64,000 nt of DNA, taken from IMG/VR virus record IMGVR_UViG_3300009094_001034, positions 1 through 64,000 of that record. One strand, written 5' to 3'. Source of the stretch: a virus. Below, one piece after another: positions 1-61,421 of the stretch; position 1 is the first letter of the stretch; each line of letters begins with the position of its first letter. The position numbers and the translations under genes were made by a program. Below the pieces are notes generated by a model. It saw nothing but the letters and a program-made list of their open reading frames with translations, was not told the DNA's origin and did not search any database.

Positions 1-519
1 TCACGGCTCGTCGGCGTGCTGATCCTCGGCTTCGGCCTCGATCTTCGTCTCGGAGTAGAAGTTGACGTGCACGAGGTGCGCATTGTCCGCGGTGCTCACG
101 CCCATCCACCAGAAGTTGTCGGCCATCTGTTCCAGGTGCACGACGACATCGTTTCCGACAATCTCGTCGAGCGTTCCGTCCGCGTTGCGGCGGATCTCGA
201 TGGGACCGACGAAGATGCTCGGCAACAGCCCGCCCTCATCGCGCTTCGGCCCGATCAGCTCACCCGACGCCGGAATGTAGCGAAAGTAGGGTGCGATACG
301 CTCGACGTAGCGCACAACCGCCTGCAACTGGTCGACTGGGCATCCAGCCGCACCGATGGCCGCTGCTGCACGGCCGACGTTTCGGTTGTAATCGCCCAGA
401 TCCTCGGAAAGTCCGGCGGCGAACGTGATCAACTCTCGCAGCACCGCTGCGGCATCGACGTTAGTTTCTGCTTCGAGTTGGGCAAGGATCGCTCGTGCAT
501 TTTCGATTGTCGCGCTCAT
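1..519 (-). CDS. Hypothetical protein (172 aa)
   Basis: I do not recognise this protein. It is soluble and acidic at its C-terminus, with an alanine-rich helical N-terminal half and a more beta-like C-terminal half; no membrane segment or signal peptide is visible. It is the last of three consecutive minus-strand genes that lie beyond the tRNA-fragment attachment site, so it may be host DNA flanking a prophage or the other end of the phage genome. The stop codon is the first three bases of the window, so the gene is complete. Confidence 0.65.
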   Translation of the reverse strand: MSATIENARAILAQLEAETNVDAAAVLRELITFAAGLSEDLGDYNRNVGRAAAAIGAAGCPVDQLQAVVRYVERIAPYFRYIPASGELIGPKRDEGGLLPSIFVGPIEIRRNADGTLDEIVGNDVVVHLEQMADNFWWMGVSTADNAHLVHVNFYSETKIEAEAEDQHADEP

Positions 520-529
520 CGGCTGCTCC

Positions 530-745
530 TCACCAGGAACTCCGTTCGAAGGCGCTGGTCACTTCGCGAATGCTCTCTTCGACTTCGACCGTTTCCCCCT
601 TGGTGAACTTGAAGACGGTGCCGCGATCCGTCTCTTCGAAGGTCGTAAGCCACATCGCGCTGATCCCGACCCTGCGGCCAGTATCGGCTTTCGTAAGCAT
701 CACGAGCTGAACGTAAGGTCGATTGTCCGAACGTCTCGAAGCCAT
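530..745 (-). CDS. Small hypothetical protein (71 aa)
   Basis: Unrecognised 71-residue basic protein with alternating beta-type segments, ending shortly before the 172-aa gene and probably in the same transcript. The start ATG is chosen because it is the only one that gives a compact ORF between the two neighbours. No known motif is seen. Confidence 0.55.
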   Translation of the reverse strand: MASRRSDNRPYVQLVMLTKADTGRRVGISAMWLTTFEETDRGTVFKFTKGETVEVEESIREVTSAFERSSW

Positions 746-837
746 GAGAGGACCGTACCTCGGTTTTCGCTAGGAATCGACTGCCGTTCGCAAATGGATG
801 AGGCGCATGCCCTCACCAGCGCACGCTCTCGCTCTCC

Positions 838-1164
838 TCAAGTCGCAACGACGAACTTGGGAAGGACCGCGATGATGTCGGACACCAGGTTCATCGCGAC
901 CGCTTCGGCATGCTTGCCTATTCGCACAAAACCGTGCACTTGGCGCATTCCTGACGCAAGGCTGCCGGAGACACTCGCCGCTGCGAAGAGCTCTTCGCCG
1001 TGATCCATCAGAAGCACGTGAACGAGTGGGTGAGATGGTGCGATCTCAGCGTGATAGCCGTTTTTCACGAGCTCGCCGATCAGTGCTTTGACAGCCTTAG
1101 AAGCCAGCGCGTGTGTCCCATCACGCGTTTCGATCCGGAGGTCAATGTGTTTCTTCGCCAGCAT
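838..1164 (-). CDS. Small hypothetical protein (108 aa)
   Basis: Unrecognised 108-aa protein starting MLAKKHID. The internal ATG at 1164 is preferred over an upstream in-frame ATG (1236) because a clear Shine-Dalgarno sequence (GAGGAAGG) lies about 7 nt before it. The sequence alternates strands and helices, contains an HGEELFAAASVSG segment, and has no membrane helix or catalytic motif I recognise. It probably leads the three-gene minus-strand group. Confidence 0.6.
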   Translation of the reverse strand: MLAKKHIDLRIETRDGTHALASKAVKALIGELVKNGYHAEIAPSHPLVHVLLMDHGEELFAAASVSGSLASGMRQVHGFVRIGKHAEAVAMNLVSDIIAVLPKFVVAT

Positions 1165-1328
1165 AGGGGGCCTTCCTCGTGCTCTAGGATCGTCCGTCGA
1201 GGTACGCGTTGCGTCGGATTCTCGCAACGCGTTCAATCAAGTTCGGTGGCAAATCTCGATGGCTAGCGCGCGAGGCCCGTCGCCAAAATTTACTCGGTGG
1301 CAAAACGTTGGCAAACCGCCCTTTTCAG

Positions 1329-1358
1329 CAACAAAATAGCCCACCTTTCGGTGGGCTA
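1329..1358 (-). terminator. Intrinsic terminator after tRNA fragment
   Basis: A perfect 9-bp stem (TAGCCCACC/GGTGGGCTA, 1337-1358) with a 4-nt loop is followed on the minus strand by TTTTGTTG. It sits directly downstream of the tRNA 3' end at 1376, the usual place for a host tRNA terminator, so it may be part of the bacterial attachment region. Confidence 0.8.
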
Positions 1359-1375
1359 AGTGATTTGGTTTCAAT

Positions 1376-1423
<48 letters not shown>

Positions 1424-1477
1424 CCGGATCAACCGGACACGCAAGCATTGAAACTGCTGGACTTGTTGGCCGACAGG

Positions 1478-2791
1478 CTACTTCTTCCCACCCGGTGCTA
1501 GGAGCTGTGCTAGGTCGAACGCCTCGCGACCCGTCGAGACCGCGGCCTCGATCGGCGCCATGAGGGCCGGGGTCTTCGAGGCGAGGAGGTGGGCGTACTG
1601 GGCGAGCGTGAACCGGGCGTCGGTGTGACCGAGTTGCCGCTGGAGCATCTTCAGTGCCCCTTCACCGCCGTTCGCGAGGATGTGGGAGGCGAAGGTGTGC
1701 CGGAAGTCGTGCCAGCGGATCGAGACGCCTTGGGCTTCGCGTGCGCGGGCGAACTCCCGGTGGAGATTGCGCGCTTCGAGGACGGGCATACGGGCGGCGC
1801 GCCTCGCCCTCACCTTCTCATCGGCGTCCTTCGGGACGGCCTGAGTGCGGGCGGGGAAGACGAAGTCGATCCACTGGTCTTCGAATGCCCGGTCGTAGCG
1901 CCGGCTGATCCTGCGGGGAAGACGGGCAGCGCCGTACTTCGCGACGACGTGGATGATGAACTCCTTCCGTGCCTCGTTCTCGGCAGCGCGCTGCGCCTTG
2001 TAGCGGAGCAGGAGTGCGGAGAGGGAGGGCGGGATGGCGACGGTGCGGACACCGGCTTCGGTCTTCGGCTCGACCTTCTGGCCCGTGGCCTGATCTCTCG
2101 ATGCGCGGATGGTGATGGTGTGCTCGGCGAGGTCGATGTCCACCCATTGGAGGGCGAGGACCTCGCCCTGGCGCATGCCGGTGAGGGCGCAGATCGCGGC
2201 GGCGATGTTGAAGGGTGTCCGCATCGCTCCGACGATCTTCAGCGCGTCCTTCAGGGGAGTGGCTTCGATCTGGGTCTTCGGGACCTTCGGGTACTCGAAG
2301 TAGACCGTCACGTCGCGCTTGAGCGTGCCGAACTTGAAGGCGTCTTCGAGCACGGAGATCATCGTCTGCAAGACGTTCTTGCGGTACTTCGGGGACTTCC
2401 CTGACGCGATCGAGGGCTCGATCTGGCGGAGCCGTTCGGGCGAGAAGTCGCGTAGCCGGATGTCGCCGATCTCGGCGTCCAGGGTCCGGAGGTGCGAGAG
2501 GACGGTACGTTCCATCGAGGGTTTGAACGGGCGCGTGCCCCGCATGCGGGTCTGTACCCAGTCGTTCGCGTACTCGCGGAAGGGAGTCTTGTCGGAGAGC
2601 TTCGGCTTGGGGCCGCGGGGATGCGCGATGAGTTCGGCCTTGCGGGTGGCCTGTGCGTCTTTCGCTTTGTTGATCGTGGGGTGCGTGCCGGCGGAGTAGG
2701 TCTTCCCTCCGACATTCACGGTGGCCTCGTAGGTCTTCCCGCGCTTCGAGATGCCGGGGGCGACTTTCGTGCGCTTGAAGCGGTTCTTCAT
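1478..2791 (-). CDS. int: Tyrosine recombinase (phage integrase)
   Basis: A 437-aa site-specific recombinase that should catalyse integration and excision at the adjacent tRNA attachment site. It has an N-terminal arm-binding-like domain (about residues 1-60, with a basic RTKVAPGISKRGKTY stretch), a core-binding SAM-like domain (about 68-165) and a catalytic domain (about 175-420). The catalytic residues R207 (TGMRQGE), H361/R364 (HDFRH), H389 (LGH) and nucleophile Y399 are all visible. The ATG at 2791 has a GGAGG Shine-Dalgarno 5 nt upstream and overlaps the previous gene by ATGA, so the longer in-frame ORF up to 3073 is rejected. The length is normal for the family. Confidence 0.95.
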   Translation of the reverse strand: MKNRFKRTKVAPGISKRGKTYEATVNVGGKTYSAGTHPTINKAKDAQATRKAELIAHPRGPKPKLSDKTPFREYANDWVQTRMRGTRPFKPSMERTVLSHLRTLDAEIGDIRLRDFSPERLRQIEPSIASGKSPKYRKNVLQTMISVLEDAFKFGTLKRDVTVYFEYPKVPKTQIEATPLKDALKIVGAMRTPFNIAAAICALTGMRQGEVLALQWVDIDLAEHTITIRASRDQATGQKVEPKTEAGVRTVAIPPSLSALLLRYKAQRAAENEARKEFIIHVVAKYGAARLPRRISRRYDRAFEDQWIDFVFPARTQAVPKDADEKVRARRAARMPVLEARNLHREFARAREAQGVSIRWHDFRHTFASHILANGGEGALKMLQRQLGHTDARFTLAQYAHLLASKTPALMAPIEAAVSTGREAFDLAQLLAPGGKK

Positions 2792-3057
2792 GACGCCTCC
2801 GTTTCGTAGAGCAGTTGTCCGTACAGGTCGTCCCCGAGCAGGGCGTACAGACGGTCGATGGTTGGATGCGATGGTTCGCGGAGAGCGAGATCCGCAAGGT
2901 GGGCGAGTGCCTCGGGTGCGGTGGTGACGCCCGTGATCGTGCAGCGGAGCGAACGACCGCCGTTGCGGATCGTCACGTTCTCGCCGCGGACGGTGATGGT
3001 GAGGCCCGCGAGGTGGATGAAGCGGGCTACGGACATCTTCTCGATTGCGTGTGGCAT
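2788..3057 (-). CDS. Small hypothetical protein upstream of integrase (89 aa)
   Basis: Unrecognised 89-aa protein translationally coupled to the integrase (ATGA overlap). It starts at an ATG with a GGAGG Shine-Dalgarno. The sequence has a short beta-rich middle (LTITVRGENVTIRNGGRSLRC) followed by a helical C-terminus. Its position is where phages often carry an excisionase or directionality factor, but there is no clear helix-turn-helix, so that is only a possibility. Confidence 0.65.
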   Translation of the reverse strand: MPHAIEKMSVARFIHLAGLTITVRGENVTIRNGGRSLRCTITGVTTAPEALAHLADLALREPSHPTIDRLYALLGDDLYGQLLYETEAS

Positions 3058-3173
3058 ACGGCCTCCATGTCAAAGGGCGACCTCAGAGTGCGGAGGTGGG
3101 CGAGGAGCCGTCGAGAGGTCCAGGACCGCTGTACGGACCCCCTACGAGCTCCCAGCCCACCTTCCGGAGGCGA

Positions 3174-3650
3174 CTAGAAGTCGGTCGCCCCGAGCTCTTC
3201 GTCGTAGCGGTCGGTGTCGTAGATCTCCCGTTCCTCGCGGTCACGAATCCCGCGGACGAGGTCCCGCATGAACGTCTCGGTGTGGACGACGATCTGGCCG
3301 TTCCGGGTGCGAGTGGAATGCTCCTTCTTCGTGTTGGTGGCTTCGGCGCGCGATGCCCAGGCCTGCAGGCGCCCAGGGATCGCATCGAGCCAGGACAGCT
3401 CATAGAAGCGGGCCTTCGACATGTTGTTCGTGAAGGCGCGGATCATCACGCCGTCCATGAAGTCATCCCCTGGCCAGTCCATCGTGGTCGAGAGGAAGTT
3501 CACGGGCTTCACAATGAAGCGGTAGAAGGTTCCGTCGACGGCGAGGAGCTTGAGGCTCTCTCCGGCGCGGAGCGGGCGGCTGCGGTAGATGGGATATTCG
3601 ACAAGGGTGGGCGGTACACTTCCTGATGTGAATCCTCGATGTGTTGCCAT
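3174..3650 (-). CDS. Hypothetical protein (158 aa)
   Basis: Unrecognised protein. The ATG at 3650 is chosen because GGAGGAAG lies 4-6 nt upstream; the ORF extends further but those residues are arginine-rich and lack coding character. The protein has a beta-rich first half (YRSRPLRAGESLKLLAVDG), a helical second half and an acidic end. It stands 117 bp before the small integrase-side gene and probably shares its transcript. Confidence 0.65.
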   Translation of the reverse strand: MATHRGFTSGSVPPTLVEYPIYRSRPLRAGESLKLLAVDGTFYRFIVKPVNFLSTTMDWPGDDFMDGVMIRAFTNNMSKARFYELSWLDAIPGRLQAWASRAEATNTKKEHSTRTRNGQIVVHTETFMRDLVRGIRDREEREIYDTDRYDEELGATDF

Positions 3651-3799
3651 GCGCTTCCTCCGTTCGCGTCGGGCTGCGACGCGTCGGGGCGCTGCACCTG
3701 CGAGGCGCGGGCTGAATGCCATGTGGAGCTACGTGGAAGGTGCTGCGAAGGAGCGCCAGACCACCTCCGCACTGCTATGGGCATAGGCGAGGAGCGTGT

Positions 3800-4861
3800 G
3801 TGGGTAACAAAACGCGGCATGGAGATGTGACAAAAAGTGCGCGGCAACACGTCATCGACGGGTTCCGCGAAGGGAGCGCGGTCGCAGCGGCACTCCGAGC
3901 AGACGCCGAATTTCTCGCAACGAGGATTCCGAAGGCGCTCCGACCGCTCGCGGTGCAGTTCTACGAAGATACGGCTGCTGCGATAGAGGGAAAGCGGATC
4001 GAGAAGACGGCGCCCATTCGAAGTGGGGAGCTGTTCGAGATGTTCGCGGCACAGGTTCGGATGATCGAGCCAGATGAAGCCATGGTGCGCGTCGACGGCG
4101 AAACGCGAGAGGCGGTGCGCGAGAAAATTCACAAGCTCAAGCGCGCCATCATGGATTGCCCGTTCGAGGCTGGCATCCCGAACATTGCCCGAGCGTATTA
4201 CCGCTTTCGTTTTCCCGAGGTCGTTCGTGGAGCGTGGGACCAGACGTACAGCTTGTACCTCGACATCGATGTGGAGTTCACGAGTCCAGAGGCCCTCTTT
4301 CGACAGGCGCTCTTGTACGAACTGTTCAAGGCGACCCCGCGCGATTACCTTCAGCGCATTCTTCAGGCGGATATCCTTGGAGATACGAATGTGCAGTACG
4401 TGTACGATCTGGCGCGCGAGCCCTCATTCGAGAGGTTTGTAGAAGCGACCACACTCCTCGAGAAGATCGGGGCGGCTCTATGGACAGACGAACGCGCGAG
4501 TTTTCTCAATCGGGTGTTTCACTACGACGTCCAGCCGGCCACGCTAGCGCACGCGCTCTTTGCGTGGACGTACATCATTGCGGCGCACGACCTGCACGAT
4601 GACGCCACGGAGAGCGACGCTTGGCCGCTTGTGTCCACGGAGTGCTTGACGCTCACTGAGAAGCTCGTTGCACTCGACGTGCTGAAGGAGCATGGCAAGA
4701 GCGTACTCCGCCCGCTCTTTCGTGTCCTGATGGCCATGGGGCAGCGCGAATCCTATTCAGTAGACCTCGGGGAGGTCATCGAGGATGCAAAGGTGAAGGC
4801 TCGGGATGAAGCACGGGCCATGACGCGGAGCGATGTCGCGATTAAAGCGATGGAGCCGTGA
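3800..4861 (+). CDS. Hypothetical protein, lone plus-strand gene (353 aa)
   Basis: A mainly helical, soluble 353-aa protein of unknown function; no transmembrane segment, nuclease motif or P-loop is visible. GTG at 3800 is preferred because GAGGAG lies about 6 nt upstream; a GTG at 3827 is the alternative. It is the only plus-strand gene between the integrase side and the replication cluster and ends convergently, overlapping the last 20 bp of the RNase H gene. Isolated opposite-strand genes at this place in temperate phages are often lysogenic-conversion or exclusion genes, but nothing in the sequence proves this. Confidence 0.7.
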   Translation: MGNKTRHGDVTKSARQHVIDGFREGSAVAAALRADAEFLATRIPKALRPLAVQFYEDTAAAIEGKRIEKTAPIRSGELFEMFAAQVRMIEPDEAMVRVDGETREAVREKIHKLKRAIMDCPFEAGIPNIARAYYRFRFPEVVRGAWDQTYSLYLDIDVEFTSPEALFRQALLYELFKATPRDYLQRILQADILGDTNVQYVYDLAREPSFERFVEATTLLEKIGAALWTDERASFLNRVFHYDVQPATLAHALFAWTYIIAAHDLHDDATESDAWPLVSTECLTLTEKLVALDVLKEHGKSVLRPLFRVLMAMGQRESYSVDLGEVIEDAKVKARDEARAMTRSDVAIKAMEP

Positions 4862-44867: not shown

Positions 44868-44907
44868 AACCAAAGAGACACCCTGTTTGCAGGGTGTCTC
44901 TTTGGTT
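44868..44907 (-). terminator. Strong 18-bp hairpin (transcription attenuator)
   Basis: AACCAAAGAGACACCCTG pairs perfectly with CAGGGTGTCTCTTTGGTT around a 4-nt loop. It lies between the repeat-fibre gene and the decoration gene within the late operon, so it probably reduces or processes downstream transcription. Confidence 0.75.
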
Positions 44908-53771: not shown

Positions 53772-53945
53772 CTATGCCGGCCGGGACCTCGCTTCAAGCC
53801 GCTCGCGGAGCCTGGCCGCTGCGTCCTTCGCCTTTCGCTCCGCGATCTCCGCGGTCAGCGCCCGCTCGTCGATCTCTGGGTGGCCGGCAACGTAGCCATG
53901 CCAGATGCCGCCGATCTTCCGCACCGTGATCTTCACGTCGTCCAT
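53772..53945 (-). CDS. Small hypothetical protein at start of late block (57 aa)
   Basis: MDDVKITVRKIGGIWHGYV begins a short beta segment, followed by a charged helix (TAEIAERKAKDAAARLRER). The pattern resembles small HicB-like or DUF-type antitoxin-like proteins but is too short to decide. First gene of the late operon. Confidence 0.5.
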   Translation of the reverse strand: MDDVKITVRKIGGIWHGYVAGHPEIDERALTAEIAERKAKDAAARLRERLEARSRPA

Positions 53946-54050
53946 GCAGGCATCGTACGGAGACCGCGGTGCAGCGCGAAACAAACGCCGCAACCACTCT
54001 CTGTGGGGACAGTCGGCAATCCACGGCGTGAAGACTCCTGAGAAAAGTTG

Positions 54051-54080
54051 TTGCGCCCGCTAATCGTGCTTTGGTATAAC
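54051..54080 (+). promoter_or_regulatory. Promoter of the accessory island
   Basis: TTGCGC (54051-54056), 18-bp spacer, TATAAC (54075-54080). Transcription would start near 54087, about 270 bp before the first ATPase gene. Confidence 0.65.
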
Positions 54081-54086
54081 CCCTCT

Positions 54087-54222
54087 TGCGCAGTTGCGCC
54101 TTTCTCCACGGGGCTTCAATAGCAGGTCCCAAAAGCGAGACGGGAACGATGAGCGAAACGAAAAGCACAGCTACACCCTCGTTGCTGCCGACCACTGTTC
54201 TGCGGGTCGGCTCTTTTTGTTT
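54087..54222 (+). ncRNA. Short leader transcript / small RNA ending in an intrinsic terminator
   Basis: From the promoter the transcript meets GCCGACC/GGTCGGC (54187-54211) followed by TCTTTTTGTTT, a standard terminator, after about 130 nt. It could be a free small RNA or an attenuator for the downstream operon. A short ORF beginning ATGAGCGAAACG at 54149 runs through the terminator and may be a leader peptide. Confidence 0.55.
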
Positions 54223-54230
54223 CTGCTCCC

Positions 54231-54308
54231 ATGCCGACGAAGCGCGCCCTCCTCCTCGCCCATCTCAACTGCGTGACGACTCCGTTCGAACGACAACATG
54301 AAACCTAA
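54231..54308 (+). CDS. Possible leader peptide (25 aa)
   Basis: ATGCCGACGAAGCG opens a 25-codon ORF (MPTKRALLLAHLNCVTTPFE...). A second 15-codon ORF (54298-54345, MKPNRTPTARTATEN) ends at the TAG inside the AGGAG of the next gene. Both may only couple ribosomes to the ATPase gene. Confidence 0.25.
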   Translation: MPTKRALLLAHLNCVTTPFERQHET

Positions 54309-54355
54309 CCGGACTCCAACAGCGAGGACGGCAACAGAAAATTAGGAGAGACCCA

Positions 54356-56152
54356 ATGGCGAAGAAGAACGGCTCTACCTTCACGAGTGAAGACCTTCAG
54401 AGTCAGGACACCTACGTGGAGAAGTTGGAGCAACAGCATTTCTCGTATCCCCTCATCGCGGCCGAGTCGTTCGTCCGCGGCATGCGCGAGTCCGGCTACA
54501 AGTCGACCGCGACGGCACTGAACGAGTTGATCGACAACGCCATCCAGGCACAGGCCCGGAACGTCGACGTGATCCTCGGCTACAACGCCGGCAACAAGAC
54601 GAAGAAGAAGCCCGACATGCTGGCCGTCGTAGATGACGGCCACGGAATGCGGGAGAAGATGATCAAGGCCTCCGTCATGTGGGGCGGCACGCACCGCGAG
54701 AACGACCGTCACGGCTTCGGCCGGTTCGGGTTCGGACTCCCGAGCGCGTCCGTCTCGATCGCGCGCCGCTTTTCGGTGTACTCGAAGGCCCCTGGCGACA
54801 AGTGGTTCGTCATCGTCATCGACCTGGACGAAATCGCGTTGGGCCGCGCGACCGACGAGAAGGGCGTGGTGAAGGTGCCGGAAGCGGTACTGGCGGAACT
54901 GCCCGAGTTCGTGAAGCCCTACGCCTCCGGCCTGGAGCACGGGACCGTCATCCTGCTGGAGAAGTTGGACCGGCTGTCGAACGGATTCGTGACGTCGCAG
55001 GCATTCAAGCAGAACGAACTGCACCAGGTCGGCGTGACGTATCGCGAGATCCTGCGCGACGTGCAGGTCCGCGTCATCGACATCGGCGAGGAATTGGACA
55101 TCACGGCCGTCGAGCCGATCGATCCGTTGTTCCTCCGCCCGGACGCGCGGTACTACGACGAGACCGACGTCCACGCCGAGCCCCTGCCAGACTTGGCGTT
55201 CGAGGTGAAGCCGTCCGAGGAGTCGCCGTACGGCGGCGTCGTGCGTGTGCGGTACGCCTACATGCCCCCGGGGTTCCTGCCGGATGAGTCGAAGCGTTCC
55301 AGCCCCCGCCTCAAGGTCCGCAAGGAGAACACGGGCCTCATCATCATGCGCGCCGGCCGCCAGATCGACGTCGTGACGAACGGTCCGAAGTTCAGCGTCG
55401 ACTCCAACGACCGTCATTGGGCGTGCGAGGTGATCTTCGAGCCCACGCTGGACGAAGACTTCAGCGTGACCACGAACAAGCAGCAGATCGTGATCAAGGA
55501 CCGGATCTGGGAGGCGCTGCGGCAGAACGGCGTGTTCGACGCCATCCGCCAGATGCGCAATCGGTACGGGAAGGATCATGGCTACACCAAGGGGAAGAAG
55601 GCCGAGTCCGAGCCGAAGGTGTCCGAGGAGATCGCGACCGAGGCCGCCAAGTTCTTCGGCCGGAAGCCGACGAAGCCGAGCGTCGCGAAGGAGAAGAAGC
55701 TGAAAGAGGCGCTCGACCGCGAGGCGGTGAAGGTCGCCGAGCAGAAGGGCACGAGCCCGGAGGAAGCGAAGAAGGTGATCGAGGCCGAGACGGCTGAGAA
55801 ACCCTACAAGCTCTTCTTCGAGTCCGGCCGCGGAGAGTTCTACCGCGTCGAGCAGTTGGGCGGCCAGAAGCAGCTCTACATCAACACGTCCCACCGCTTC
55901 TACTCCGACGTCTACAACAACCCGCTGACGACGAACCGCATGCGCACCGCGCTGGAGTTGCTGCTGTTCACGATGGGCGCCTGTGAGCTCGAGTCTGAAG
56001 GCGACCGGGAGATGTTCTACACGAATGAGCGCGTCGAGTGGACGCGGCGGCTCGACACGTATCTGCAGTTGCTGGATCGTCGCGATCCGGTCGCCGATGC
56101 CCGAGCGGCCGAAACCACGCGCGCCGAGGCCGAAGACGAGTCGGCGGCGTAG
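54356..56152 (+). CDS. GHKL-fold ATPase A (MORC/Hsp90-like, 598 aa)
   Basis: N-terminal GHKL ATPase domain: N-box ALNELIDNAIQA (E57, N61), G1 box VVDDGHGM (D94), G2 loop GRFGFGLPSAS (122-132). A transducer-like beta/alpha domain follows (to about 400), then a charged coiled-coil C-terminus (KVSEEIATEAAKFFG ...) with a final acidic tail. The layout is closest to MORC/Hsp90-type ATP-gated clamps. It is neither histidine kinase (no H-box) nor MutL (no MutL C-terminus). Shine-Dalgarno AGGAG. First gene of the island. Confidence 0.85.
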   Translation: MAKKNGSTFTSEDLQSQDTYVEKLEQQHFSYPLIAAESFVRGMRESGYKSTATALNELIDNAIQAQARNVDVILGYNAGNKTKKKPDMLAVVDDGHGMREKMIKASVMWGGTHRENDRHGFGRFGFGLPSASVSIARRFSVYSKAPGDKWFVIVIDLDEIALGRATDEKGVVKVPEAVLAELPEFVKPYASGLEHGTVILLEKLDRLSNGFVTSQAFKQNELHQVGVTYREILRDVQVRVIDIGEELDITAVEPIDPLFLRPDARYYDETDVHAEPLPDLAFEVKPSEESPYGGVVRVRYAYMPPGFLPDESKRSSPRLKVRKENTGLIIMRAGRQIDVVTNGPKFSVDSNDRHWACEVIFEPTLDEDFSVTTNKQQIVIKDRIWEALRQNGVFDAIRQMRNRYGKDHGYTKGKKAESEPKVSEEIATEAAKFFGRKPTKPSVAKEKKLKEALDREAVKVAEQKGTSPEEAKKVIEAETAEKPYKLFFESGRGEFYRVEQLGGQKQLYINTSHRFYSDVYNNPLTTNRMRTALELLLFTMGACELESEGDREMFYTNERVEWTRRLDTYLQLLDRRDPVADARAAETTRAEAEDESAA

Positions 56153-56169
56153 CCGACAGGGACCAACGG

Positions 56170-56199
56170 AAGGCCCGGGTTCTCCCCGGGCCTTTTCGT
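56170..56199 (+). terminator. Intrinsic terminator between the two ATPase genes
   Basis: AAGGCCCGGG pairs with CCCGGGCCTT (10 bp, 5-nt loop), followed by TTCGTT. It would limit expression of the downstream genes relative to ATPase A. Confidence 0.75.
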
Positions 56200-56214
56200 T
56201 CATGAGGAGAACGA

Positions 56215-57678
56215 TTGAAGAATGGAGAGATCATCGCGCTGGCGACCTTCATCGACGCCATCCGTGACGCCGGGTACCGGGGCACGCCCGCAGCGATCGC
56301 CGAGTTGGTGGACAACGCCATGGAGGCCGGAGCGACGAACATCACCATCGAACTCTGGACGACGGACGACGGAACGTCGGTGTACGTAGCCGATAACGGC
56401 TGCGGCATGCCGCCCGAGACGATCCGCCTCGCCCTGCAGTTCGGCGGCAGCACCCGCTTCGATTCCCGCGCGGGGCTCGGGCGGTACGGTATGGGGCTCC
56501 CAGGAAGTTCGATCAGTCAGGCATTGCGTGTCGACGTGTATTCGTGGACGACGCGCGGTGCGGCCTGGTGGACCTTTCTGGATGTCCCGATGATCCGCGG
56601 CGGCGCCCTCGTAGCCGTGCCGAAACCGCGGCGTGCCACGCCACCCGTGGGACCGCGAGAGACGACGAGCGGCACCATCGTCCAGTGGACACACTGCGAT
56701 CGCATCCCGAGCATCACCCCACGCCTCCTGCGGGAGATCCACGAGACCATCGGCCGGCTGTTTCGGACGTTCCTGTGGGCCGGAGCCACGATCACCGTGA
56801 ACGGCGTCGAGGTGCAGCCCGTTGATCCGCTTTTCCTGCGGCCGTCAGCGGCGCCGGTCGGAGCACGCCAGTACGGCCCGGAGTTGATCTTCCCCATCAC
56901 CCTCCGAGACGGGAACAGGAAGCGCCACGCCACCGTGACGGCGCAGTTCGTCGAACTGCCGATCGCGGAGTGGGAAGGGCTTTCGAATGCGGAGAAACGG
57001 AAGTATCGGATCTCCAAGTCTCCCGGCATCTCCATCCTCCGCGCCGACCGGGAGATCGACACCGGCTGGTTCTTCATGGGATCGAAGCGGAAGGAGAACT
57101 ACGACGATTGGTGGCGTGCGGAAGTGCGGTTCAGCCCCGAGCTCGACACGTTCTTCGGCGTGACGCACACGAAGCAAGGGATCCATCCGACCGCCGAGAT
57201 CGAGGCCATCTTGTCGCCGCAGATGGAGCGGATCGCACATGACCTGAACGCCCGCGTCCGGAAGACGTTTCTCCGCGTTCGGGCGACGGAGCCGAATACC
57301 CGCGCGATCGACTACGCCTCTGCTCGGGACCACCGGTTGGAGCCGCCGAAGCGTGCGGTTCGCCGCGGCGCAATGAAGGCGAAAACACGAGGATTGACCT
57401 ACTCCATCGAACACGCGAAACTCCCCGGCCCGCGGTTCTTCGCCGTGCGGATCTCAGACGGCCGGGTCAGAATCATCCTCAACGAGGATCACCCGTTCTA
57501 CACGGTCGTTTACGGGGACAATCGGAAGCGCGATGCGACACAGGATCGTCTCGCGCAGTTGGAAATGATGCTCCTTGCAGCAGCGCGCGCGGAAGTCCAG
57601 TGTGTGCGAAAAGAGAAGGTGGAGGCGAGGGCGTTTCTCCAACAGTGGAGCGATGCTCTCCGGACGTTTTTGACCTAG
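56215..57678 (+). CDS. GHKL-fold ATPase B (487 aa)
   Basis: Paralogue-like second GHKL ATPase: N-box AIAELVDNAMEAG (E30, N34), G1 VADNGCGMPP (D60), G2 GLGRYGMGLPGSS (87-99). Then VQPVDPLFLRP, RDGNRKRH and SPGISILRADREIDTG, segments shared with ATPase A (EPIDPLFLRP; NTGLIIMRAGRQIDV), showing common ancestry. TTG start with AGGAGA 5-6 nt upstream. The pair may form a heterodimeric clamp. Confidence 0.85.
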   Translation: MKNGEIIALATFIDAIRDAGYRGTPAAIAELVDNAMEAGATNITIELWTTDDGTSVYVADNGCGMPPETIRLALQFGGSTRFDSRAGLGRYGMGLPGSSISQALRVDVYSWTTRGAAWWTFLDVPMIRGGALVAVPKPRRATPPVGPRETTSGTIVQWTHCDRIPSITPRLLREIHETIGRLFRTFLWAGATITVNGVEVQPVDPLFLRPSAAPVGARQYGPELIFPITLRDGNRKRHATVTAQFVELPIAEWEGLSNAEKRKYRISKSPGISILRADREIDTGWFFMGSKRKENYDDWWRAEVRFSPELDTFFGVTHTKQGIHPTAEIEAILSPQMERIAHDLNARVRKTFLRVRATEPNTRAIDYASARDHRLEPPKRAVRRGAMKAKTRGLTYSIEHAKLPGPRFFAVRISDGRVRIILNEDHPFYTVVYGDNRKRDATQDRLAQLEMMLLAAARAEVQCVRKEKVEARAFLQQWSDALRTFLT

Positions 57679-59655
57679 ATGGCGGATGAACGAGAGTGGT
57701 TCCCTTTTCAGCCCGAGCTCGGGCAGCACGTCGAGGAGTTCACGACGTTCGCTACGCGCTTGGCTGAAGCCACAGACCTGAAACCGCTGCGACTCGAGGT
57801 GCTCCGGGAACTCGACCGGGCGAAGAACGGCGCGCTCCCGCTCCACATGGTCCAGAGCATTGCCCTCGACCTCGCCGATCAGGGCTGGGGATTCAGCGTC
57901 GATCGAGACGGGATCGCATGCTCCGCTCCATCTGTCGCGGATGAATGCTCGGCGAGCGCAAAGACACGCATCCGTCAGGGCCACGCTTTCGAGCGCTCCG
58001 CCCACCTGCGCGAACCCTCCGTCCAAGACTTCATTGCGGCGATGGAACAGCGAAGGCTCACGGCGAACGGCTGGCATTCGATCTACTCGCTCATGCGCGA
58101 TGGCCGGGAACTCGGCGCGAAGTTGGCTGCGGCCGCGACGCTTGAAGGCGCCGCGCGCGAGAAAGCGCTTGCAGCAGCGATTGATCCCTACATCCAGTTC
58201 GTTGATCCGGATGTCGTCGACGAGCACACGGGACTCCTCCTCACGGACATCTGGCGCTACTTCCGGATGACGTGGGTGAACATGCACAAGTCCGTTCCTG
58301 GCCGCACGATGATGATCCTCATCCGCGACCGAGCCGCGGCACAACATCCGGTCATCGGGATCGCGGCGCTCGCGAGCGCCGTGGCGCAGTTGGACCTGCG
58401 AGACTCGTGGATCGGATGGAATGCTGCGGCATTCCTCGACCACCTGGACAACGAAGGGAACGCAGCAGATGCGAAGTGGCTCCACGCATCCATCGACAAT
58501 CTCCTCGACGCGATCTACCTGAAGGATCTCCTCAAGGAGAAGATCATCAGCAAGGCGCTCATCGCGACGCCTACCGAGGACCTGATCCGAAACCTCCGGG
58601 ATGCGGCAGCGGAAGCGAAGAAGAAGCACCACCAGAACGCCGATGCCGCGGCGATGAAGCGCAAGGACGTCGCTTGGGAGGAGAAAGCGCTCCTGCCACT
58701 CTTTCGCGCGAAGCGCTGCGAAGCGCTGGCAAAACTCCTCGGTATCCGACTCGTGTTTCAGAAGGTCGGTTTCAGTACCGGCTCTAAGAAAGCGCTCGAC
58801 CTCGCACTCTCGCAGCCCTCAGCGCGGACGGCGATCGGCCAACTCGTGCGGGCAGTGAAGTCGGAGCACGTCGGTATCGACATGATGGACATTACAGTCT
58901 GCGGCGCGGTGGCGCCGTACAACCGCGTGCTCGGCGGGAAACTCGTGTGCACGCTCCTCACGAGCCCCGAAGTCGTGCAGGCGTACAAGCGACGGTACGA
59001 TGGCCAGGAAAGCATCATCGCGTCGTCCATCAAGGGCGCTCCGGTACGCCGAACGCCACGGCTCGTGCTGCTCTCCACGACGAGTCTCTATGGCCGCGGC
59101 TCAAGCCAGTACAACCGCGTGAAGATCCCGGCGGGCGTGGCGGGCGGAGCGGACGGGGATGTCGTCGAGTACCGACATCTCGGCCACAGTAAGGGCTTCG
59201 GGACCTTCCATTTCAGCGCCGAGACCGTGCGCGTCATCGATACTCTTCTCGCCAGACGCCAGGACGGAAAGCGGGTGAACTCCATCTTCGGAGAGGGCGT
59301 GAATCCGCGGATGCGGAAGATCCGCGAAGCGCTCGAATCCGTGCGGTTGCCGAGCGACGCCATCTTGAATCACGGCGTTCCGCGCGTTGTGTACGGCATC
59401 GCGCTCGCGTCGAATTTCCGCGACGTGCTCCTCGGTCGGCAAGACAAGCCGCGCTACGTGATCCCGCAAACGAAGCCTGCGGAGCGGTCGGCCCGGCTCG
59501 CGGCCTTCTGGCGAACGCGATGGCTATCCAATCGCATCAATGATCCTGCGGTGCTCTCGGACATTGCGGAGCACACGCTGTCGTACCCCGTGACGCATGG
59601 AGCTCGCGTCGTCGGTCCGCCTATTGAAGGAGATGAGAACGAGACCCTATGGTGA
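57679..59655 (+). CDS. DruA/DUF4338-like protein (658 aa)
   Basis: N-terminal ~200 residues unrecognised and helical. The middle has LRDSWIGWNAA (241-250), resembling the RDxWIGW of DruA/DUF4338 proteins of Druantia-type anti-phage systems. The C-terminal half has CGAVAPYNRVLGGKL (408-422) and TTSLYGRGSSQYNR (467-480), invariant-looking blocks I associate with the same superfamily. Starts directly after ATPase B's stop and overlaps the next gene by 7 bp, so it belongs to the same operon. The biochemical function of this family is not established. Confidence 0.7.
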   Translation: MADEREWFPFQPELGQHVEEFTTFATRLAEATDLKPLRLEVLRELDRAKNGALPLHMVQSIALDLADQGWGFSVDRDGIACSAPSVADECSASAKTRIRQGHAFERSAHLREPSVQDFIAAMEQRRLTANGWHSIYSLMRDGRELGAKLAAAATLEGAAREKALAAAIDPYIQFVDPDVVDEHTGLLLTDIWRYFRMTWVNMHKSVPGRTMMILIRDRAAAQHPVIGIAALASAVAQLDLRDSWIGWNAAAFLDHLDNEGNAADAKWLHASIDNLLDAIYLKDLLKEKIISKALIATPTEDLIRNLRDAAAEAKKKHHQNADAAAMKRKDVAWEEKALLPLFRAKRCEALAKLLGIRLVFQKVGFSTGSKKALDLALSQPSARTAIGQLVRAVKSEHVGIDMMDITVCGAVAPYNRVLGGKLVCTLLTSPEVVQAYKRRYDGQESIIASSIKGAPVRRTPRLVLLSTTSLYGRGSSQYNRVKIPAGVAGGADGDVVEYRHLGHSKGFGTFHFSAETVRVIDTLLARRQDGKRVNSIFGEGVNPRMRKIREALESVRLPSDAILNHGVPRVVYGIALASNFRDVLLGRQDKPRYVIPQTKPAERSARLAAFWRTRWLSNRINDPAVLSDIAEHTLSYPVTHGARVVGPPIEGDENETLW

Positions 59656-60146
59656 ACGTCCTTGAAGATCTGTACCACGTGAGCGCGACGCCGCGTGAGT
59701 TGAGTTGGCAACCGTCCCTGAAATCGAAGACGTGGGATGACGCGACGAAAGAGGAGATCGAGACGGCCCTCGATGCGCAGCGCCCAGCGCAGGCTCCGTC
59801 GCGGCGCAAGAGCTACTTCGCGTTCCGAACGATCGACGAGTGCGTCTACTACGCCGACTCGGAGGGCATCGGGCCGGAACGCCACTTCTACGTGGTGAAA
59901 CTGACGGGAGCTGTACGGGCGCCAATCAAGATCATCGCGGTGCCCCCTGCATTGTTGCCGTACCGCGACGCGATCTACCGTCACTACTGGAACGCCGACG
60001 ACGGGTGGAAGGTCTACGAACTTTTTGGCGAGCAGATGATCGTGCGGGACGAATACAAGGGCACGATCCCTGACGCTGGCCATGTGCTTGCGAAGTTGGT
60101 TGATGACCGGAACCGCCTGATGCAACTGGCTGCAACGTGGCGATGA
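59649..60146 (+). CDS. Hypothetical protein, possible ADP-ribosyltransferase-like fold (165 aa)
   Basis: Motifs LYHVS (17-aa N-terminus), SRRKSYFAFRTIDECVYYA and a late GEQMIVRDEYKG have the H, Y and E spacing of ADP-ribosyltransferase-like toxins (H-Y-E), but similarity is weak and no family is certain (also DUF2441-like). Lies tightly between the DruA-like gene and the nuclease gene (overlap on both sides), so is probably a component of the same system. Confidence 0.5.
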   Translation: MVNVLEDLYHVSATPRELSWQPSLKSKTWDDATKEEIETALDAQRPAQAPSRRKSYFAFRTIDECVYYADSEGIGPERHFYVVKLTGAVRAPIKIIAVPPALLPYRDAIYRHYWNADDGWKVYELFGEQMIVRDEYKGTIPDAGHVLAKLVDDRNRLMQLAATWR

Positions 60147-60598
60147 CCGATGAAGTGCTGGAGGTGTTGCGTCAGGCGAAAGTGCTTGCGCAGCGCTATC
60201 GTGCGCTGACGGGAAAGCCGCTCGGGATCACCGGAGAGGTGGCCGAGTACGAAGCCGCTCGAATCCTGGGAGTGCGACTTACGCCGGCGCGGCAATCGGG
60301 ACACGACGCCGTCGAGATCGTTGATGGCCGCGAACGCACGCTCCAAATCAAGGGGCGATGCATCCTTCCGGGGGCGAAGAAGAGCCAACAGACGGGTTCC
60401 ATCGATATCGAGAAGGCGTGGGATGCGGTACTTCTCGTGCTCGTCGACGAAAGCTTCGACGCGTACATCATCTATGAAGCGGAGCGCGACGCCGTTCTGA
60501 AGGCGATCCTTGAACCGGGCTCGAAGGGGAGAAACGAGCGGTGGGCGCTGTCGGTGAGCAAGTTCAAGGGCATTGGACGCGAGCGCTGGAAGCGCTGA
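60143..60598 (+). CDS. PD-(D/E)XK-type nuclease (151 aa)
   Basis: Restriction-endonuclease-like core: LGITGEVAEYEAARILG (E32/E35), QSGHDAV (D55) and LQIKGRC (Q68-I-K70), the E...D...QxK arrangement of small PD-(D/E)XK enzymes. ATG 60143 overlaps the previous stop (ATGA). A likely DNA-cutting effector of the island. Confidence 0.72.
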   Translation: MTDEVLEVLRQAKVLAQRYRALTGKPLGITGEVAEYEAARILGVRLTPARQSGHDAVEIVDGRERTLQIKGRCILPGAKKSQQTGSIDIEKAWDAVLLVLVDESFDAYIIYEAERDAVLKAILEPGSKGRNERWALSVSKFKGIGRERWKR

Positions 60599-60614
60599 CG
60601 GTTATTCTTCTGCC

Positions 60615-61421
60615 ATGAACGATGTGCCGCAGCCGACCGCGTACGAGGAACGTTTCATTGCGTTCGTGGATGTGTTGGGTTTCGGCGCGCTGGTGTCCGA
60701 GTCGGGAAAGCCAGGTGCGGATGCGGCGGGGACAATCAAGCGAATCTGTGATGCGATTCTGTGGTCGCGGGAAGAACTCGAAGATCTGTTGAGTGGTTCT
60801 TCCGATTTCGTCTTTACGCAGTTCTCAGACTCCTTCGTGATCAGCACGGAGGCGTCGAATGAGACCCAACGATTCGGCCTCAGCCAGTTTGCCTTCGCAG
60901 TGCGCGCGATCATCGATTGTTTCCTCGGGTCTGACTTGGTTCTGCGCGGTGGTGTTACGCGCGGTCCGCTGATTCATACGCGTGAACTTCTCTTCGGCCC
61001 TGCGATGAACCGCGCGTATGAGTTGGAGTCTCGCGTGGCGAATGTTCCTCGGATCATCTTCGACCCGGACATCCCTGCCGTCCGTGATGCGCTGATGACG
61101 GACTACATGCCGGACTACGTGGCGAGAGACACGGACGGGTTCTTTTACGTCGACTACTTCTCCCCTACGAAGAAGTTCTTTCTCGTTCCGAGCTGGCTGT
61201 ACTCCATTCAGCGAATCATCGAAGCAATGCCGGTATCGGCGGCGCTCGCGGCAAAACGCGAATGGATGGTTGCGAAGTTCAATGCGCGCCTCGAGGGTTT
61301 CTCATTCGAAGCGTTCAAGGCACGGCTCGATGACTACGTCGACGACACGGACGCGATCAACGCCGTCATCGAAGACTACGAGAAACTCCTTGAGCCGGCG
61401 CGGCGTCTGCGACGGTTGTAG
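60615..61421 (+). CDS. Nucleotide-cyclase-like protein (268 aa)
   Basis: Class III cyclase-like fold: IAFVDVLGFGALV with metal-binding D19, FTQFSDSFVIS with D72, then LRGGVTRGPLI and LLFGPAMNRAYELES, the RGG-x-T-x-G...GPAxNxAYxLE pattern of a defence-associated cyclase-like family. It could make a nucleotide signal, or be an inactive relative. A longer frame from 60573 is rejected. Last gene of the island. Confidence 0.65.
   Translation: MNDVPQPTAYEERFIAFVDVLGFGALVSESGKPGADAAGTIKRICDAILWSREELEDLLSGSSDFVFTQFSDSFVISTEASNETQRFGLSQFAFAVRAIIDCFLGSDLVLRGGVTRGPLIHTRELLFGPAMNRAYELESRVANVPRIIFDPDIPAVRDALMTDYMPDYVARDTDGFFYVDYFSPTKKFFLVPSWLYSIQRIIEAMPVSAALAAKREWMVAKFNARLEGFSFEAFKARLDDYVDDTDAINAVIEDYEKLLEPARRLRRL

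Follow-up and report, generated by a model that had tools for sequence, protein, structure and literature searches.

The locus raises the question of how a phage-borne, mobile defence-type island is silenced and switched on, a largely open field. The DNA analysed here (hereafter the window, 64,000 nt) comes from a virus record of 97,173 bases, and its island starts at 54356 on the + strand. The island encodes two GHKL ATPases (A1 and A2) and DruA, together with further ORFs of 165 aa, 153 aa (with a restriction-enzyme-like match) and 282 aa. A phage structural block lies upstream of it on the − strand, and within the window the island (54356-61421) adjoins terminase-like phage genes. The first-pass annotation had described a promoter followed by a strong terminator before the ATPase genes; both sites are indeed found there (Table 1), and both are rare by chance in the record.

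The extended -10 element TGGTATAAC (54072-54080) is the sole TGnTATAAY in the record on both strands, where ~0.1 per strand would be expected by chance. Its -35 hexamer has three of the six consensus bases, at a spacing of 18 nt, and this weak -35 is why the standard promoter scan, which reported no promoters, missed the site. We infer an RNA start near 54087, and a small 5' hairpin is predicted there; a viral contig carrying the same genes, L006, has by eye a hairpin GCCGCGA...TCGCGGC in the same position. The terminator is formed by the stem GCCGACC/GGTCGGC (54187-54193/54205-54211) with an 11-nt loop, and then TCTTTTTGTTTC. Since the loop limit of the standard terminator scan is 8, this hairpin was missed and was recovered by a scan allowing loops to 12. 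Under the strict terminator rule, the + strand of the record holds two matches, 54187-54211 and 56172-56192, where 0.39 per strand are expected.

As in an attenuator leader, the promoter and the intrinsic terminator stand in this order 5' of the first island gene, and a short ORF (54149-54301) overlaps the terminator hairpin (54187-54211). This ORF had been reported to run into the hairpin. It does meet the hairpin, but passes through it and ends beyond it, not inside. Its start lies 12 nt 3' of the tail of a conserved hairpin, Hp1, and its peptide is not conserved in L006 (comparison E 0.096). Folding of the whole 137-nt leader is unremarkable (z -1.1, with 26 of 200 shuffles equally stable). 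The segment 54146-54232 is more stable than all 200 of its shuffles (z -4.2), and its predicted fold is an outer helix around two hairpins and the U-tract. A comparable branched fold is predicted for L006 (4494-4580; z -2.8, one of 200 shuffles as good).

Table 1 Features of the island leader and its genes in the window, and the sigma-gene leader of actinobacterial relatives.
Feature	Coordinates	Strand	Details
Promoter	54051-54080	+	Weak -35 TTGCGC (54051-54056), extended -10 TGG-TATAAC (54072-54080)
Small 5' hairpin	54088-54099	+	GCGC-AGTT-GCGC; at predicted RNA start; from sequence
Conserved leader block	54105-54139	+	30/35 identical to L006:4452-4486; E 2e-4, second comparison 6.5e-5
Hp1	54110-54130	+	7-bp stem GGGGCTT/AGGTCCC, loop CAATAGC (54117-54123)
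Hp1 tail and ribosome-site region	54130-54140	+	Tail CAAAAGC (54130-54136), purine-rich ribosome-site region
Short ORF	54149-54301	+	50 aa; ATG 54149, stop ends 54301; spans terminator; from sequence
Outer helix	54151-54228	+	54151-54165 with 54213-54223 and 54225-54228; predicted to sequester U-tract
Intrinsic terminator	54187-54222	+	Stem 54187-54211, U-tract 54212-54222
Hp2	54309-54331	+	CCGGACTC-CAACAGC-GAGGACGG; second hairpin copy; 6/8 pairs, tandem G-A mismatches
Hp2 tail and ribosome-binding site	54332-54348	+	Tail CAACAGA (54332-54338), AGGAG (54344-54348)
A1	54356-56152	+	GHKL/HATPase_c_3 ATPase, first island gene
Hairpin and T-run between A1 and A2	56171-56193	+	10-bp stem; loop-12 scan, strict terminator rule
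A2	56215-57678	+	Second GHKL ATPase
DruA	57679-59655	+	PADLOC DruA1, 592 bits
Sigma-gene leader RNA	L021 7857-8004; L031 7874-8010		Also L015, L017, L019, L020, L117, L118

Comparison with the leaders of homologous islands, which the first-pass annotation had proposed, yields a conserved hairpin block in L006, a single viral contig recovered by a DruA protein search. L006 encodes A1 (47% identical), A2 (44%) and DruA (53%), arranged as in the window. When the 409-base leader region was searched against 94 loci, the only matches were L006 and L092, which are two views of one contig. All seven stem pairs of Hp1 are kept in L006 despite four altered stem bases, and a ribosome-site-like sequence and an ORF start follow at an equal distance from the block. 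The GAGA at 54137-54140 of the window is predicted to be able to pair with TCTC at 54103-54106. The A1 genes of the two viruses are 61% identical in DNA, and the conservation of the block equals that of the best coding DNA and is not above it, because 46 of 1405 35-nt windows within the A1 gene reach at least 30 identities. A viral search with the pattern CCACGGGGCTNCAANAGCNGG returned the L006 contig only. A looser viral pattern returned 15 contigs; A1, A2 or DruA is encoded on just one of them, L101, which is the L006 contig again. In DNA searches, phage records yielded four weak matches and plasmids none. Judged by these comparisons, part of the leader is almost unchanged in sequence, and is kept in predicted fold, between distantly related viruses carrying the same genes. 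In L006, the three genes lie by eye near terminase- and portal-like genes. Two ORFs lie upstream of its A1 (5-4345), by eye one helicase-like (1031 aa) and the other nuclease-like (408 aa), and no counterpart of them was noticed in the window.

The first-pass annotation underestimated the leader, having missed Hp1 as well as its repeat, Hp2, just before A1. A model built from the window and L006 pair of blocks (R1) also found a second L006 copy just 5' of the A1 start (E 0.073), which has an 8-bp stem (4683-4705). The element takes the form of a stem, a CAANAGC loop, the same motif repeated right after the stem, and then a ribosome-binding site. At Hp2 of the window, CCTAA (54304-54308) is predicted to pair with TTAGG (54342-54346). 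Since the loops of Hp1 and Hp2 are direct repeats and not complementary, base-pairing between the leader and mRNA copies is not suggested. The antitoxin-like brake that had been offered as an interpretation is unsupported, given this relation of the loops, the missing ToxI-like repeats and the lack of an Rfam match. Attenuation, the other part of that interpretation, is supported by the promoter, the terminator, the spanning ORF and the conserved hairpin. A type III toxin-antitoxin RNA was considered and rejected, the region 53900-54400 containing only short two-copy repeats and no ToxI-like tandem array.

To describe the layout in other A1 loci, we used a strict pattern with a 7-bp stem, a 7-nt CAANNGN loop and a CAANNG tail before a start codon, which is expected ~1.0 times per Mb per strand and 0.00027 times in a 270-nt leader. 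In the 97-kb phage record, it matches once, at Hp1 (54117); Hp2 of the window has two mismatches and so is not a strict match. The other loci (1,265,290 bases) contain 12 strict matches where ~2.5 are expected, for a pattern set after the first copies had been viewed. Eleven of the 12 lie at A1 starts or in the described leaders of the A1 system, four of them in the near-duplicates L017 and L018. Among 22 loci inspected before the pattern was set, the hairpin stands before A1 in eight (the window, L006, L015, L017, L020, L021, L031 and, as a variant, L019), is weak in L012 and is absent in 13. All three A1 loci fetched after the pattern had been noted (L117, L118 and L120) have it, and it is also present at the additional A1 copy of L023. 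Searches of 394, 294, 397 and 387 genomes for further A1 homologs matched 3, 2, 1 and 1, centre genomes included.

The actinobacterial A1 hairpins have the layout of the phage hairpins and different stems. The stems covary across 14 actinobacterial copies, most of which were picked partly for pairing: 98.0% of 98 cells are paired and 26 carry changes in both partners, a result reached by 0 of 500 shuffles. At E<=5, a covariance model of these copies (R2) recognised neither Hp1 (54110) nor Hp2 (54309) of the window; its match to the L006 Hp2 reached no better than E 0.63. A segment 5' of the hairpin can pair with the ribosome site in 13 of 13 elements, and the elements' own partners are no better than swapped ones (377 of 2000 permutations as good).

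A structured RNA with no Rfam match is also conserved before the gene following A1 in eight actinobacterial loci (Table 1). The product of this gene has sigma-70 regions in L021 and L031, the two loci scanned, and the leader contains a hairpin related to the A1 hairpin. RNAalifold on the eight leaders gave helices P0, P1 and P2 and a local CACCC/GGGUG hairpin; P0 covaries, one of its pairs being AU in three, CG in three and GC in two. A U-rich run follows a helix that includes the sigma start codon. By eye, CACCC has an alternative partner, a GGGUG that lies at the start codon of the sigma gene beside the U-rich run, and a two-state switch at this start codon is possible. The covariance model of these leaders (R3) has matches in 3 of 394 Actinomycetes genomes, and A1 is found in 3 of 394 of a similar sample, with G078 and G158 common to the two lists.

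The phage leaders share with the sigma leader a 7-bp hairpin with a CAANNG-type loop and a CAACYGA tail, and a later helix followed by a U-rich run, whereas R3 recognised neither phage leader and found no P0/P1 outer helices or ~100-nt P0/P1/P2 domain there. Since neither R2 nor R3 recognises it, we do not assign the window leader to these RNA groups, and its likeness to the actinobacterial RNAs appears to be one of layout and motif, to be read as a resemblance. A likeness of the codons over the U-tract (VGSFCF, against VGTFCF in L015) was discarded as a sign of sigma-leader homology because it follows from the U-tract itself. In L012 and L023, a sigma gene lies directly upstream of A1. The L012 leader has a hairpin GGGGC-CAATAGT-GCTCC before its sigma gene that looks intermediate by eye, and it was not among the R1 matches at E<=10. 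Neither phage record, either of which may be incomplete, contains a sigma-region-4 match over the Pfam cut-off. One candidate at 78027-78161 on the − strand was rejected, its 16.4 bits being below the cut-off and the ORFs there unlike a sigma factor. Another leader, GGAGGTCCCCTCCAACGCGGCGAMAAGCGCTGC...GGACCTCC, occurs twice in L023 (5146 and 7822), once before the sigma gene and once before the gene after A1; its GGACCUCC has two alternative pairing partners, the 5' strand and the ribosome-binding site.

A function for the phage leader is well supported, and the conserved element is most likely an attenuator. Our leading, though still tentative, reading is that 54051-54355 constitutes the regulatory leader of the island, in which a translation-coupled attenuator is combined with a lock on A1 at Hp2. 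A regulatory factor would bind the Hp1 and Hp2 hairpins; A1 is our guess for this factor because every locus that has the element shares this gene. If Hp1 keeps the short ORF's ribosome site shut, the ORF would stay untranslated, the terminator would form and the transcript would end near 54218. When the short ORF is translated, ribosomes would open the terminator hairpin and RNA polymerase would read into A1, A2 and DruA, with Hp2 serving as an added translational lock on A1. In the chromosomal relatives, a sigma gene lies beside A1, the actinobacterial one with its own structured leader and a related hairpin, and in the phages the leader is found without a sigma gene. Expression of the later island genes may depend on passage through a second terminator, because hairpins follow A1 both in the window (56171-56193) and in its relatives. 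Most A1 relatives have strong hairpins 3' of A1. A compact conserved hairpin at several control points offers a direct experimental handle on the system. Binding by the GHKL ATPase itself would let the system gauge its own abundance; were the partner a small molecule, the hairpin could act as an infection-reporting switch.

Two known classes come close to this arrangement. One is the general class of leader attenuators in which a translated ORF covers the terminator. The window shares with it a promoter, a short ORF and an intrinsic terminator before the first structural gene; it differs in having no regulatory-codon run and in the conserved CAANAGC-repeat hairpin that precedes the ORF start. 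Autogenous translational operators, such as those in phage coat-protein or ribosomal-protein leaders, likewise have a small hairpin at a ribosome-binding site, a variable stem with a constant loop, and several copies per operon, whereas here the loop motif is also repeated in a single-stranded tail and the binding partner is only hypothetical.

A wider reading, which we regard as possible but doubtful, is that the doubled-CAAYNG hairpin represents a new class of sensing RNA, responsive to a protein or a ligand, that controls GHKL-ATPase/sigma/DruA systems. As parts of this same doubtful reading, it would play three roles: before A1 it would be an operator at the ribosome site, in the phages an attenuator of transcription, and in the actinobacteria a larger, riboswitch-like sigma leader. 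If this were true, an RNA sensor would switch on a defence-type island.

A separate RNA of ~132 nt (54087-54218) is possible as the terminated product, and it is consistent with the promoter and terminator bounding a complete small transcription unit and with the U-tract being sealed in a predicted outer helix, as is common in stable RNAs. CsrB-type RNAs titrate CsrA, and the loop motif common to Hp1 and Hp2 would suit a comparable decoy, in which a copy of the A1-operator hairpin titrates an mRNA-binding factor. We consider such a decoy unlikely: sponge RNAs usually carry many hairpin copies, whereas this one has a single copy and no Rfam match, and read-through into A1 must occur anyway because no other A1 promoter was recognised. 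It is improbable that the leader is a leftover from phage islands that lost their sigma gene, with promoter, hairpin and terminator kept only for driving A1. The sigma genes adjoining A1 in chromosomal relatives fit such a loss, as does the absence of a sigma gene passing the Pfam cut-off in either phage record, but the block is kept at 30 of 35 positions while the A1 DNA is 61% identical, as expected under selection, and the phage leaders are unmatched by the full sigma-leader model R3.

Processive antitermination elements such as HK022 put and the EAR RNAs offer another precedent, under which Hp1 and Hp2 would modify RNA polymerase in cis to pass the terminators at 54187 and 56171. The hairpins do precede terminator-like hairpins (56171-56193, and after A1 in most relatives), but their position at ribosome-binding sites points to translation and no Rfam family matches, which makes this quite improbable. 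That promoter-like and terminator-like sites stand here by chance, without a regulatory role, is very improbable given the cross-phage conservation, the second hairpin copy and the low chance rates, even with a weak -35, two sites that the standard scans did not return and an ordinary whole-leader fold.

With Druantia type I and Mza (PADLOC names), the island shares DruA (592 bits) and GHKL ATPases of the MzaB-like kind; the scan of six island ORFs matched neither DruB, DruC, DruD or DruE of Druantia type I nor any further component of these systems. An Rfam search of the window at the gathering score had no match to the leader, and a search of the leader at E<=5 gave a chance match only. In ten related loci, Rfam matched one tRNA and one c-di-AMP riboswitch, neither of which is the hairpin element. 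The riboswitch match (L031 352-506, 58.8 bits) lies a few kb 5' of the A1 locus and is unrelated to the element.

Literature searches on Druantia, DruA and DUF4338 had no leader RNA among the matches listed, most subscription journals being outside the search. They found no paper joining Druantia and GHKL and no riboswitch or leader RNA paper on anti-phage defense, and a search combining attenuators, antiphage and leader peptides gave nothing on the subject. The accessible text of PMC7824862, matched on sigma factor, GHKL ATPase and defense, contains no system of the A1-leader kind. DUF4338 is mentioned only as a domain in DndF in the available portion of PMC10853773, and neither GHKL nor sigma factor appears as a term in PMC12458937, on Druantia and YprA helicases, whose available passages name no leader RNA. 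Elsewhere in the window, a perfect 15-bp hairpin (44871-44904) lies where two phage structural genes meet and is terminator-like on both strands.
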